From: Halichondria panicea
Taxonomy: Eukaryota > Porifera > Demospongiae > Suberitida > Halichondriidae
Assembly (NCBI RefSeq): GCF_963675165.1
Contig: NC_087389.1
Coordinates: 4,944,620-5,008,619 of the forward strand
Reading direction: 5' to 3'
Length of the DNA stretch: 64,000 bases
Below are positions 57,267 through 63,821 of this stretch, in pieces. The translations under genes and the position numbers were made by a program. The notes under the pieces were generated by a model. That model was not told the origin of the DNA. It saw nothing but the letters and a program-made list of their open reading frames with translations, and did not search any database. Numbering within the stretch: the stretch's first letter is position 1; each line of letters begins with the position of its first letter.

Positions 57267-60200
57267 ATGGCTGAATCTACAACACTGAATGCTGCTAGTT
57301 CCCCACAGTTGATGATGAAGGATGGACTCACTGATAAGGAAAGGGTATGATATTCACATGATAGATAGATACTCAATGATCAGTGCATTCTCTTATTGCC
57401 TAGATATATGTACTTGTTGACTAGGCCCGACCGTCCCTAGCCCTGACAGGAGGTCGGGTTTCAAGCCGATGTCAGGATTTGTCTTGCTGGATTATGTAAC
57501 ACGCTGATAGCAGCTATGAATATTATATGATTTACCTTGCTTGCGGTTGCACAACCGGACGTGACACTGACCACATTAGAAATGCTTCAATTTTAAGTTG
57601 AAACCCGACCTCCCGTCAGGGCCACGCCCAACTGCTTGTTGACCACGTATCCATAAACACACTTGGCATCATTCAATTCATAACAGTATATAGTGCCTAC
57701 ACTCTGTGTGAGGTGTTTTATCTCATGTTGTTCTCTCCACATATACCACTCTCTCTGGATGAACAACAGAGGAGGATTAAGGTACGTTGTGTGCAATCAT
57801 ATTCTCCCAAGCTGACATGCTTGTTAGGAGGTAGACAGTGTAAAGCTCATACAGATAACTGGCGTATACAGAGAAGAGGGCATGCAACTTACTATGTACC
57901 GTACATACTCATCCGACTTCGTATCATAGGCCGGATATACTAAAAATAGAATCCAGTATACAGACGTGAACAAGTGGGCAGTGTTATTTACGGAGACAAT
58001 TATTATGGGCGTGTACATCAGAGCTGCCTTTGCTAGCTAGCTAGCTAACAGTGCAGTATTATTTTAGAGAAGTGTCATGACCAGTCCTAGTCCAGCCAGG
58101 TTCAAGACAAACCCTTTGAGCGGGAAGTTAAGTGCTGGGCGCATTGTTAGAAGTACCAGAGATTCTGGAAGACAGGTTTATTGTACCTAGGTTTCATCTT
58201 CTTGGAGTTGCAAATGTTGGATGGTTTGCCTTTGCCTTTGACACTGCTAGTACGAGCCTAGCCTCGACCCCAGGTCGATCCGTCTCCAATTGAACGCTAT
58301 AGGTCGCCTATTTTTTAACTTCGTTAGTACGAGCCATGCTGCTGCTGAGAACTAGTTTTACTATGCAATCGAGCTAGCTAGCTACCTAGTAAGTACCTAG
58401 TACCTGCAGATATATATATATATATAAAAAAGACTTTGATTTACCTTGTGCGGTCAAAGGTTATGCGTGGGCGTTTTTGTGGGCAGTTCTGAGAATATGG
58501 TGCCCTTTTCTCTGTATATGCCCTTGACTGAATGTGATACTATTCCGTAATTGAGACAAGTAGATCTACTCGTAGTCAGTCTGCCCTAAGACCCCAAATG
58601 TTGTAAGACAGGAAGTGCTACAAGTTGCCTCATAAAGAGAACAGTTTTTCTTTGTTTTTGATAAAAATAAAGGCTATCTAAGTTGTAAGAAGACAGTTTA
58701 AATTATGAATTTGGGTCAAACTAGCATAAAGTTGTGTTAAATGATTGCCGAAAGTTTGAATTTTTTTGAGCAACCTGTTCACCATCGACGTAGCAAGCTA
58801 AAGAAGAATCTGAATAACAACATATTCAAGGTAAATGCCATACAAATGAATGGTGTTTGCAAAGCAGTTACATGAACTTTGACATAAATACACAACTTGG
58901 CAATAGCGTAGAACACATCATGAATGACTTCAACCCTTCTAGCTTGCTGCTAAGTATACACATGCATCAGATGCACTACTTTAGGCAGTCACTGGTTCCT
59001 TTCACATCTGGAGATATGCAGCCATGAGTTCCACCAACCACAGAGACTATTCAGAATGTTTGAATTTTTGTGCAAGCTGTTCACACTATCTCCATCTAGT
59101 CCAAACTTGCTGAGTCAATACATTCCATATATTGAACTAATTTATCTCCTAGTAACAAGTTCTAGTTCAGTAAATGGTCTGTGTTATAAGCTTAGGAAAT
59201 TCACAATCTGGCAGAGTTGTTGGGTGTCATCAAGAGTTCATTAGGAAGAGTACGCAACTCCAATAGACTGTACACAAAAAGTACTACTGGCAGTTGTAAA
59301 TGAATAACATTAGTGATAATTATCACAAACATCACTATGTTATTCATTGCAAATTAATTTGATTTCACAGTTTATACAACAGCATGTGGTTGCGACGTAA
59401 GGTTGGAGAAACGCCCCCTATGGTTTTAAGTGGAGTTGCGTATACTCTTCCTAATGAACTCTTGGTGTCATCATTATGAACTCATTATATGATTATGAAT
59501 TTCATTAAAACAATGTTTTTGTTTGTGGTATGTATTTCCTGTCTTGTCTTGCAAATACGGGGCAGACTGAGTACCCAAAAGTATGCATATCATGCATGGT
59601 TAATCAAGTGAGTCTGCTTGTTTAGCTGTCCACAATTGTTTCCCCTCCCCTGTATCATGAAACTGCACTAATGCCTTCCATTTCATGCATATCCACCTCA
59701 CCTTTGACTGACCCTCTGAAACAACAGCGTGTAAGTTGGTGTGTGTTGTCAGAGTATTTAGTGCATATTCTGTGATGTTTCTATACTTCCCCATTATTAC
59801 TCTTGTGTGCCATAGTTTTATTAAGGGAAATTGTATGATCTCATTCAACCTCGTAATCATTCATTTACTATCTTCCCACATGTTTGCCCTGTGGACTCTC
59901 CCTCTCTGGATCAACAGCTTGTAAGTTGTGTTTGCACGTGTACACTCATTTTTATAGTTACTGTAGGAACTTTTACTTAGAAAATCGTAAAATTAATTTG
60001 CATAATTATTGCCAACTTGGTATTAGTCGAGGCCCACAAAACTTATTAGTTGTACTTTTAATTCTTTTCTTAGTACATTATCGTATTTGTCTTTTCCCAT
60101 GCACACACTCATTCCTATGTTGGACCACACACTGATTTGGACTATACTGTAGGAGGTGAGCTCAATGTCCCCACACTAAAATGTATACTGGTTACCTAGC

Positions 60201-63200: not shown

Positions 63201-63821
63201 CACTGATTGATTGCTCCTATAGAAAACTCATATTGTGTGACCTCAAACACACAGTCTAAAACTCACTCTTGTTTTGTTTACCTTGGTCAGACGAAGGCTG
63301 TGTATGAGAGGCAACTGAAGAGCCATGAGACGGTGAGTGTTAACTCGCGGTAAGAGTAGTACACGTACACGTAGTCTAGCAATACGATAATGTGTGTACA
63401 TGTACTGTCCATTGTATGATGAATGGTTGCTTTTTGTCTACCTTTTTGTTTTATAAGTAGTCCACTTTTACTGGTTGGTAGTTGCTGACCTTTATATTTT
63501 GTTATGTGGATTGTACGCAATTTGTTAACCTTATAACGTGCAGTAGTGATTTGTATCAGCTGCATGTTGTATTTGGTAAAATGTTCATTCATTCGTATAT
63601 ATAATATATATTCCCCCAGAGAAGAGCTGCCCTCCAACGGAGACTGTCTGGTGACATCACTGACCAGGACCGGAGACAACTGCAGGGACAGCTGGAGGAG
63701 GTGGAGGGGAAGATCAAGAAGTGTGCCTCAGATATACAAGTGTATGAGGGGTGGATACATGATAATGAGAATGTGATTGCTAAGACGCGAAGAGAAGGAG
63801 AGGAGATACTGAGAAAGGAAG
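57267..63821 (+). CDS. Roc-COR-like gene 2, N-terminal coiled-coil exons (3' part outside the window)
   Basis: Paralogue of gene 1. Proposed exons: 57267-57344, 57770-57781, 59728-59730, 59918-59920, 60153-60155, 62055-62066, 62345-62347, 62620-62622, 62717-62719, 63135-63137, 63291-63332, 63620-63821. The start MAESTTLNAASSPQLMMKDG has good ATG context and ends GLTDKER at a GTATGA donor. All exons are in phase 0 except the last, which ends in phase 1 exactly as gene 1's equivalent, so a GTPase exon is expected past 64000. The product is a long coil: RRIKRLEGYIEDHKKTK, then TKAVYERQLKSHET, then RRAALQRRLSGDITDQ and ...RREGEEILRKE. Hydrophobic or large residues recur at heptad a/d spacing across the micro-exon joins. 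Identity of the missing part is inferred from gene 1. Confidence 0.68.
57440..57622. mobile_element. short MITE in gene 2 intron 1
   Basis: GCCCTGACAGGAGGTCGGGT at the left and ACCCGACCTCCCGTCAGGGC at the right are inverse. The interior is noncoding. Confidence 0.7.
57782..59727. other. gene 2 intron 2, mostly unique and repeat-derived sequence
   Basis: This ~1.95-kb intron between the RRIK exon and the first 3-nt exon holds a TATATA tract at ~58412-58426, the MITE at 59225-59470 and CTAGCTAGC runs. No further exon-like triplet or open frame could be supported. Confidence 0.45.
59225..59470. mobile_element. MITE with ~40-bp inverted ends
   Basis: TGTCATCAAGAGTTCATTAG...GTACGCAACTCCA is mirrored by TGGAGTTGCGTATAC...CTAATGAACTCTTGGTGTCA. 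A second, inner pair AATGAATAACAT...ATGTTATTCATT lies between 59300 and 59350. Confidence 0.75.
60357..61052. mobile_element. ~0.7-kb inverted-repeat element in gene 2 intron
   Basis: TACCGTACCCTCGCAAAA and TTTTGCGAGGGTACGGTA form perfect ends. The sequence on either side aligns with gene 1 (GGCACATGCTCCAAACT before; TTCTCAAGATT...CTTTAATGT after), where the insertion is absent. Confidence 0.8.
61254..61919 (+). mobile_element. short non-autonomous Helentron relative
   Basis: It shares both ends with the Helentron at 32499-40352: the TATGCCTCGGTGCGCAT start, the CAAGCGAGGTATACGGTA hairpin partner, a long GT run (~61293-61391), the body block, and the terminus CACCGAGGCA with a GCACCTGCGGTGC hairpin and CTTTCATT. 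It lies in gene 2 between flanks that are contiguous in gene 1, so it is a true insertion. Open frames over the GT run are meaningless. Confidence 0.82.
61293..61391. repeat. (GT)n microsatellite
   Basis: Nearly pure GT dinucleotides with occasional TTT interruption, inside the Helentron relative. The matching, shorter tract is at 32536-32580 in the full element. Confidence 0.95.
62779..62988. mobile_element. MITE in gene 2 intron between two micro-exons
   Basis: TACCGTATATATAGCTGGTAATTTCC at the left is imperfectly inverse to GAAAATTACCGGCAATATGGTA at the right. Inner CCACGAATATTTT/AAAAATATTATCCAC blocks also pair. It is absent from the same intron in gene 1 (20320-20548). Confidence 0.75.

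Follow-up and report, generated by a model that had tools for sequence, protein, structure and literature searches.

Can a protein helix be assembled from exons of a single codon each, and what would such a helix be for? This question is raised by a 64,000-nucleotide stretch of the genome of the sponge Halichondria panicea (the window, C13:4944620-5008619), in which an earlier note, made from the letters alone, had read a run of seven 3-nt exons at positions 57267-63821. Here, we compared this gene with its relatives in the same genome. The comparison points to a family of germline recognition proteins, a reading that we consider quite probable, in which a translated helical hairpin with a hypervariable outer face precedes a Roc-COR-like GTPase and, in some members, a death-type domain at the end.

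The twelve exons that had been listed between 57267 and 63821 were all recovered there, on the + strand. The start exon, E1 (57267..57344, 78 nt), begins MAESTTLNAASSPQL. It is followed by the 12-nt exon E2 (57770..57781) and by three one-codon exons, m1 (59728..59730, CGT here), m2 (59918..59920, CTT here) and m3 (60153..60155). A second 12-nt exon, E3 (62055..62066), is followed by m4 (62345..62347, GAT here), m5 (62620..62622, CAT here) and m6 (62717..62719). The last one-codon exon, m7 (63135..63137, AAA here), precedes the 42-nt exon E4 (63291..63332), which ends helix 1, and the 202-nt exon E5 (63620..63821), which comprises a turn and helix 2. The exon plan of helix 1 is 12+3+3+3, 12+3+3+3 and then 3+42 nt. 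The single open phase claimed by the earlier note holds as well: all lengths are divisible by 3 except that of E5, which ends in phase 1 and joins an exon outside the window, and the joined translation, which begins MAESTTLNAASSPQLMMKDGLTDKERRRIKRLEGYIEDHKKTKAVYERQLKSHETRRAAL, is without a stop. The 2112-nt GTPase exon of this gene is also outside the window, in locus L053. Within 57267-63821, the motif AG-NNN-GTRAG, by which the triplets had been recognised, has 8 occurrences on the + strand, seven of them at the one-codon exons and one closing the 42-nt exon, and none on the - strand. In 500 dinucleotide shuffles of this interval it is found 0.9 times on average, with a maximum of 6, and the comparison of gene copies is far stronger evidence than this shuffle test.

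The family comprises about 40 gene copies, nearly all on two contigs, and two of them are in the window. In the searched genome (131.5 Mb, 39 contigs), the start-exon region matches at least 40 places, including the window's own (the best 40 of 85 candidates). The exact flanks of m2 are present at 38 places, 22 on contig C10, 15 on C13 and 1 on C17, with 0 for a reversed control; the matches at C10:5258310 and C17:5261167 lie off the main clusters and are possibly isolated family members. Our table comprises 33 distinct copies, after removal of 20 short loci inside longer stretches and with L045 merged into the second copy of the window. All exons are present in 21 of the 33; each of these 21 gives an open join, and no two share the same micro-exon string. 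The other 12 are 10 loci covered in part, L051 and L052. The start exon of L051 (C10:2309812) has its frame broken by a short insertion, and its first 12-nt exon was not found by pattern; the copy may have decayed, or the assembly may be wrong there. The last exon of L052 was not found by the pattern used. Four further stretches have m5, m6 and m7 in 4/4 cases and m4 in 1/4. The length of E5 varies between 181 and 202 nt and is always 1 modulo 3 (31 copies where it was found), and its open join to the next exon was checked in the window gene and its paralogue. About 23 kb downstream of the window, a stretch at C13:5031191-5031399 is 100% identical to the 209 bases around E5, at the end of the query. 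In the RefSeq protein P0011, the E5 tail of the window gene follows an N-terminal part that is unrelated, so part of the hairpin exon appears to have been duplicated to another place. Scans with the gene pattern gave 0 matches in the contig collections of other genomes and of viruses, as did a profile scan of the viral contig collection.

The copies are nearly constant around the small exons and highly variable within them. In the 21-copy alignments, every small exon has AG before it and GT after it in all rows, and the donors of the one-codon exons read GTRAG in all rows except for GTTAG at m2 of L031 and L046. The difference per column is 0.01-0.06 over the 30 bases upstream of each small exon and 0.00-0.06 over the 12 bases downstream, with the exception of m3 (0.16 downstream), compared with 0.62-0.78, close to random, at codon positions 1-2 of m1, m2, m4 and m5. 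When a free gap of 0-18 nt was allowed between the exact flanks of m5, the gap was exactly 3 nt at 35/35 places; these exclude the window gene, in which one flank base differs. Four of the seven one-codon exons are near-random: m1 has 10 different codons, all NNT, in 23/23 copies, m2 has 11 codons in 28 copies, m4 has 13 in 33 and m5 has 10 in 32. The exon m7 is less variable (5 codons in 33 copies), m3 holds only Glu or Lys (GAG 27, AAG 3, of 30 copies), and m6 is fixed as AAG, Lys, in 33/33 copies and in 4/4 further copies. Both 12-nt exons consist of two variable codons, an Ile codon and a Glu or Lys codon (Arg once); the Ile codon is ATT in 22/22 copies of E2, and E3 has Ile in 32/33. Variable codons are also present near the end of E1 (two codons, aligned in 21 copies), at codons 1, 4 and 5 of E4 (33 copies in the exon table, of which a separate alignment covered only 8) and at eight sites of E5. 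The variable helix positions are rich in R, E, Y, W and N, charged and aromatic residues. At some sites the third base is kept while bases 1-2 are saturated: besides m1, the first codon of E3 is NNT in 31/33 copies and m4 is NNC in 23/33. The first codon of E2, unlike these, does not keep its third base.

The share of variable codons that differ is much the same in close and in distant pairs of copies. Excluding copies that have long insertions or deletions, the intron middles diverge by 1-14%. Among 481 copy pairs in total, 87% of the helix-1 variable codons differ in pairs with less than 2% intron divergence (n=61), and 90% differ in pairs with more than 12% (n=64). Over 210 pairs, the proportion of nonsynonymous differences (pN) is 0.61 at variable codons versus 0.07 at conserved ones, and the proportion of synonymous differences (pS) is 0.27-0.29 versus 0.06.

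Several properties of the triplets are those of a translated helix. Among 402 variable codons at 14 sites there are 0 stops, versus 15.5 expected, and 0 of 20000 column permutations are as low; in m1, m2, m4, m5 and m7 alone there are 0 in 149, versus about 2.8 expected. Over 20 sites in the two helices, none of 606 codons encodes proline, versus about 9.0 predicted from column frequencies, and the other 19 residues are all represented; the lone proline of the 402-codon set sits in E1. Over the 22 joined residues from E2 into E4, variability has a period of 3.6, with 0 of 5000 shuffles as strong, and the best period for helix 2 is 3.55. When the 128 subsets of the one-codon exons were scored for this periodicity, full inclusion ranked first per residue (0.419). 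The lack of stops and of proline, the helical period and the best score for full inclusion make it almost certain that the codons of these exons are translated, and most likely all of the one-codon exons are used together.

The helix differs from the coiled coil that the earlier note had proposed. Each of two full heptads is made from one 12-nt exon and three one-codon exons, with patterns vvIEvvE and vvIEvvK, where v is a variable position; a third heptad, vvKAvvE, comes from m7 and E4. One register does run across every join, and the product appears helical. Of the heptad residues that had been named, those at every seventh position (I, I, K and the last L) are conserved. The remaining half of the core, L, H and Y, falls at sites with 10, 10 and 6 different residues; because these vary, the helix is not a classical a/d coil. 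Heptad position a is Ile in both full heptads, and position d, which corresponds to m2 and m5, has 10 residues in each (28 and 32 copies). The suggestion that dropping one exon could tune the coil fares poorly, as the periodicity power drops from 9.21 to 5.0-7.1 on omission of any single one of m1-m7. The pattern recurs in helix 2, encoded by E5, where Ile occupies E5 residues 31, 38, 45 and 52 and eight sites are variable. If E5 residue 12, which lies in the turn, is taken as the origin, fixed residues occur 18, 25 (Lys), 32 and 39 positions before it and 19, 26, 33 and 40 positions after it. With this spacing, the fixed positions of helix 1 would lie opposite those of helix 2, the arrangement of an antiparallel hairpin.

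The body that follows the hairpin was characterised mostly in homologues. The AlphaFold model of P0001, a homologue that starts at E4 and does not have the one-codon exons, comprises a helix (residues 2-23), a turn and a second helix (29-89), with a predicted local distance difference test (pLDDT) score of 75-88 over the first 60 residues and a mean of 61.6 overall. With this model, Foldseek returned Roco/LRRK proteins as all of the 13 best PDB matches; 3dpu has an expect value (E) of 5.4e-9 and template modelling (TM) scores of 0.61 by target and 0.32 by query. The P-loop motif is GxxxxGK[S/T], and the corresponding segments are GPAGTGKT in the window gene and GAAGSGKS in its paralogue. A Pfam Death domain is found in P0005 (E 5e-5, 23.7 bits versus a cut-off of 22.6), and P0019 carries a precomputed PF00531 assignment. 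The one-codon exons probably build helix 1 of a helical hairpin ahead of a Roc-COR-like body.

On this reading of the family as recognition proteins, each gene would encode the hairpin and the GTPase, and at least some members would end in a death-type domain. In each heptad, the fixed Ile and one or two fixed charged residues would pack the hairpin, and the four remaining positions, being hypervariable, would make its outer face. Concerted evolution or constraint may keep the introns alike while diversifying selection alters the exposed residues, which would give each gene copy an individual surface. Contact of this surface with a partner could switch the GTPase and be passed on as death-domain signalling. 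The putative role is most likely specific recognition, as in innate immunity or allorecognition.

A number of observations weigh against this reading. The Roco/LRRK fold matches are partial (TM up to 0.65 by target and 0.34 by query, on a model with the mean pLDDT given above), Pfam finds neither Roc nor COR in P0001, P0005, P0006 or P0014, and COR-A in the distant relative P0079 scores 30.6 bits, below the cut-off of 35.3. Because Pfam does not recognise these domains, we call the body Roc-COR-like and not a proven ROCO protein. In the Pfam scan of the open reading frames (ORFs) of the window, the GTPase body was not recognised and no Death domain was found, and a Death domain is above the cut-off in only 1 of 5 proteins scanned. 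Omission of m1-m3 as a block ties with full inclusion at 0.419 per residue, and omission of all seven one-codon exons ranks third of the 128 subsets (0.402); helical periodicity disfavours the skipping of single exons, and by this measure block skipping comes out as well or nearly as well. As pS is also higher at the variable codons, their pN/pS ratio reaches only 2.2. Exons outside the 21-copy alignment were located by patterns that require the flanks. Finally, the one-codon stretch is present in 0 of 27 annotated H. panicea RefSeq proteins (27 of 84 matches). By reading, the N terminus of these proteins falls within E4, E5, the GTPase exon or sequence that resembles an intron; the start of P0011 is unrelated. 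The start codon of P0001 and P0002 is the variable first codon of E4, which by chance is ATG in the L042 copy. We considered P0015 as support for splicing, since its start resembles the intron beside m4 and it may use the m4 donor, and set it aside; its own copy is not among the four stretches compared. Very short exons are often missed by annotation, according to the part of a published study available to us (PMC8831610).

The alternative that survives best, although we regard it as unlikely, is a pairing code in which the hairpins of different copies bind selectively to each other or to themselves, with no outside ligand. Roco proteins dimerise, which is in keeping with such pairing, as is the helical spacing of the variable positions on both helices, where charged and aromatic residues abound. 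At a coiled-coil interface, however, the a and d residues should stay hydrophobic; here, c, d, f and g vary together and include W, Y, R and G.

It is rather improbable that the variability comes from a mutation process aimed at codons, or from template copying, and not from selection alone. Such a process would account for the difference at 87% of variable codons already present between copies with near-identical introns, for the raised pS, for the retained third base at several sites and for the independence of codons across sites, even between neighbours within E2 and E3. Against it, m3 and m6 have the same exon-intron setting and vary hardly or never, stops and proline are absent, and the variable codons of E5 lie in an ordinary exon. 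That copies with the same residue also use the same codon, as they do in 1246 of 1344 pairs, carries little weight, since a third-base permutation control gives nearly as much (about 89%). Different exons share codons as often as expected (ratio 1.00, and 0.99 for adjacent variable exons), and sharing within exons is weakly raised (1.18). We rejected block shuffling by recombination in the introns on these ratios: the exons are not exchanged as linked blocks, and the exchange of single codons is unaffected by this result. A residue-by-residue repertoire, in which single-residue exons between constant introns would allow independent diversification or exchange among dozens of germline genes, perhaps by codon-targeted mutation or conversion, has in our view a slim chance of being correct. 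Micro-exons are not required for variability, as the ordinary exon E5 is equally variable. Two proposals on the origin of the array were also rejected. An introner origin fails because none of the 55 intron pairs compared has a z above 3.5 (60 shuffles each), and a duplication of the 12-3-3-3 module could not be traced through the introns, which are dissimilar to each other, E2 and E3 sharing only short flank words.

We find it hard to believe that the one-codon exons are optional, with skipping singly or by trios to alter the coil. They are all symmetric, in phase 0, so the frame would survive skipping; dropping the m1-m3 block, or all seven, nearly preserves the helical periodicity per residue, and the micro-exon genes of schistosomes are alternatively spliced, as described in the parts of two papers available to us (PMC10526429, PMC4350168). 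Nevertheless, omission of any single one weakens the periodicity, m3 is nearly fixed and m6 wholly so, and if all seven were skipped the two conserved Ile residues would be 4 apart instead of 7 and their register with the Ile residues of helix 2 would be lost. It is very improbable that the AG-NNN-GTRAG sites contribute no codon and act as splice decoys or as steps of recursive splicing. In favour of this, the RefSeq models do not have these exons, very short exons are difficult to splice and the empty exon set came third in the periodicity test, but untranslated sites give no cause for the absence of stops and proline or for the codon-wise conservation of m3 and m6.

The second family member of the window, an older paralogue of the gene described above, keeps the whole array. 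Its hairpin exons span 12976..21208 on the + strand, some of their ends having been placed by eye on the alignment, and its start exon and first 12-nt exon are upstream of the window, in L045. The one-codon exons are located at 12976, 16217, 16466, 17141, 20201, 20317 and 20549, the 12-nt exon at 16867-16878, the 42-nt exon at 20694-20735 and the last hairpin exon at 21028-21208. The aligned pieces are 74-83% identical to the window gene in nucleotides. All seven one-codon exons are kept and 5 of the 7 codons are changed, with TAT, ACT, AGA, GTG and GTG in place of CGT, CTT, GAT, CAT and AAA; GAG and AAG are unchanged. The GTPase exon of the paralogue (23187..25252, +), called Roc-COR-like from the homologue fold, has 42% amino acid identity to that of the window gene. 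As the GTPase exons of the two members are only 42% identical, the array has been kept through a long separation. An ORF at 26187..26539 (+) is a death-domain-like exon, named by its likeness to the family members P0005 and P0019; a Pfam scan of this ORF gave no match.

Other genes lie between the two family members. The ORF at 40827-42566 is NLR-like (Pfam NACHT, E 9e-24), that at 45429-46545 is NLR-like by eye, and those at 34143-39291 we take, by motif, to be Helitron-like Rep/helicase genes. Two near-identical transposase-like ORFs of 556 amino acids, presumably piggyBac-like by their motifs, are present on the - strand at 3835-5505 and 7294-8964, beside repeated short ORFs.

Seven one-codon exons per helix, in dozens of copies, push down the limit to which coding sequence can be subdivided and still be spliced, and the variable helix is absent from the annotated proteins examined. 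If the recognition surface is true, the sponge, near the base of animals, has a large and variable receptor-like family. The array opens to test how the spliceosome defines such exons, what drives near-random codons between near-identical introns, and whether variable Roc-COR-like proteins take part in sponge self/non-self recognition. Among the entries listed by a literature search, in which long result lists were covered in part, none concerned a run of one-codon exons, with or without a hypervariable surface, or this family.

Elements of the array have counterparts elsewhere, described here from the parts of the sources available to us. Human RPS24 has a 3-bp exon beside 18- and 22-bp exons (PMC12686416), and plant APC11 and VPS55 have 1-nt exons (PMC8831610). 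These genes likewise indicate that splicing can handle exons of 1-3 nt and that such exons tend to escape annotation; unlike the sponge array, they carry one such exon, with no array of variable codons. The HET-D/HET-E NLRs of Podospora, which act in non-self recognition, have repeats that are homogenised by concerted evolution while a few hypervariable sites diversify (PMC12222747). The similarity of the introns and the saturation of the codons in the sponge family resemble this combination of concerted evolution and diversifying selection. HET-D/HET-E differ in having WD40 repeats within one gene and an NLR nucleotide-binding domain instead of Roc-COR, and the portion of that paper available to us does not mention micro-exons.

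The micro-exon genes (MEGs) of Schistosoma, by the same partial sources, are the nearest in exon size. They encode secreted proteins, and their exons are mostly of 15 bp, with a minimum of 6 bp in the text or 3 in the abstract, and are alternatively spliced (PMC10526429, PMC4350168). Both systems have runs of very short symmetric exons, and some MEGs have a ratio of nonsynonymous to synonymous substitution rates (dN/dS) above 1. The sponge gene differs in having seven 3-nt exons and in varying between gene copies; by reading, no signal-peptide-like stretch is seen at its start, and only helix 1 is micro-exonic, while the coding region of a MEG consists mostly of very short symmetric exons. The nearest in kind, as far as the accessible part of the source allows, are the ROCO genes of brown algae, proposed immune receptors in which each leucine-rich repeat has a 72-nt exon and the exons are shuffled (PMC11378527). 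The two families would share a Roc-COR-type GTPase, a recognition region in repeat-sized exons and diversifying selection at surface sites; in the sponge, however, what is divided is a helical heptad, into exons of 12+3+3+3 nt, and no block shuffling is seen.

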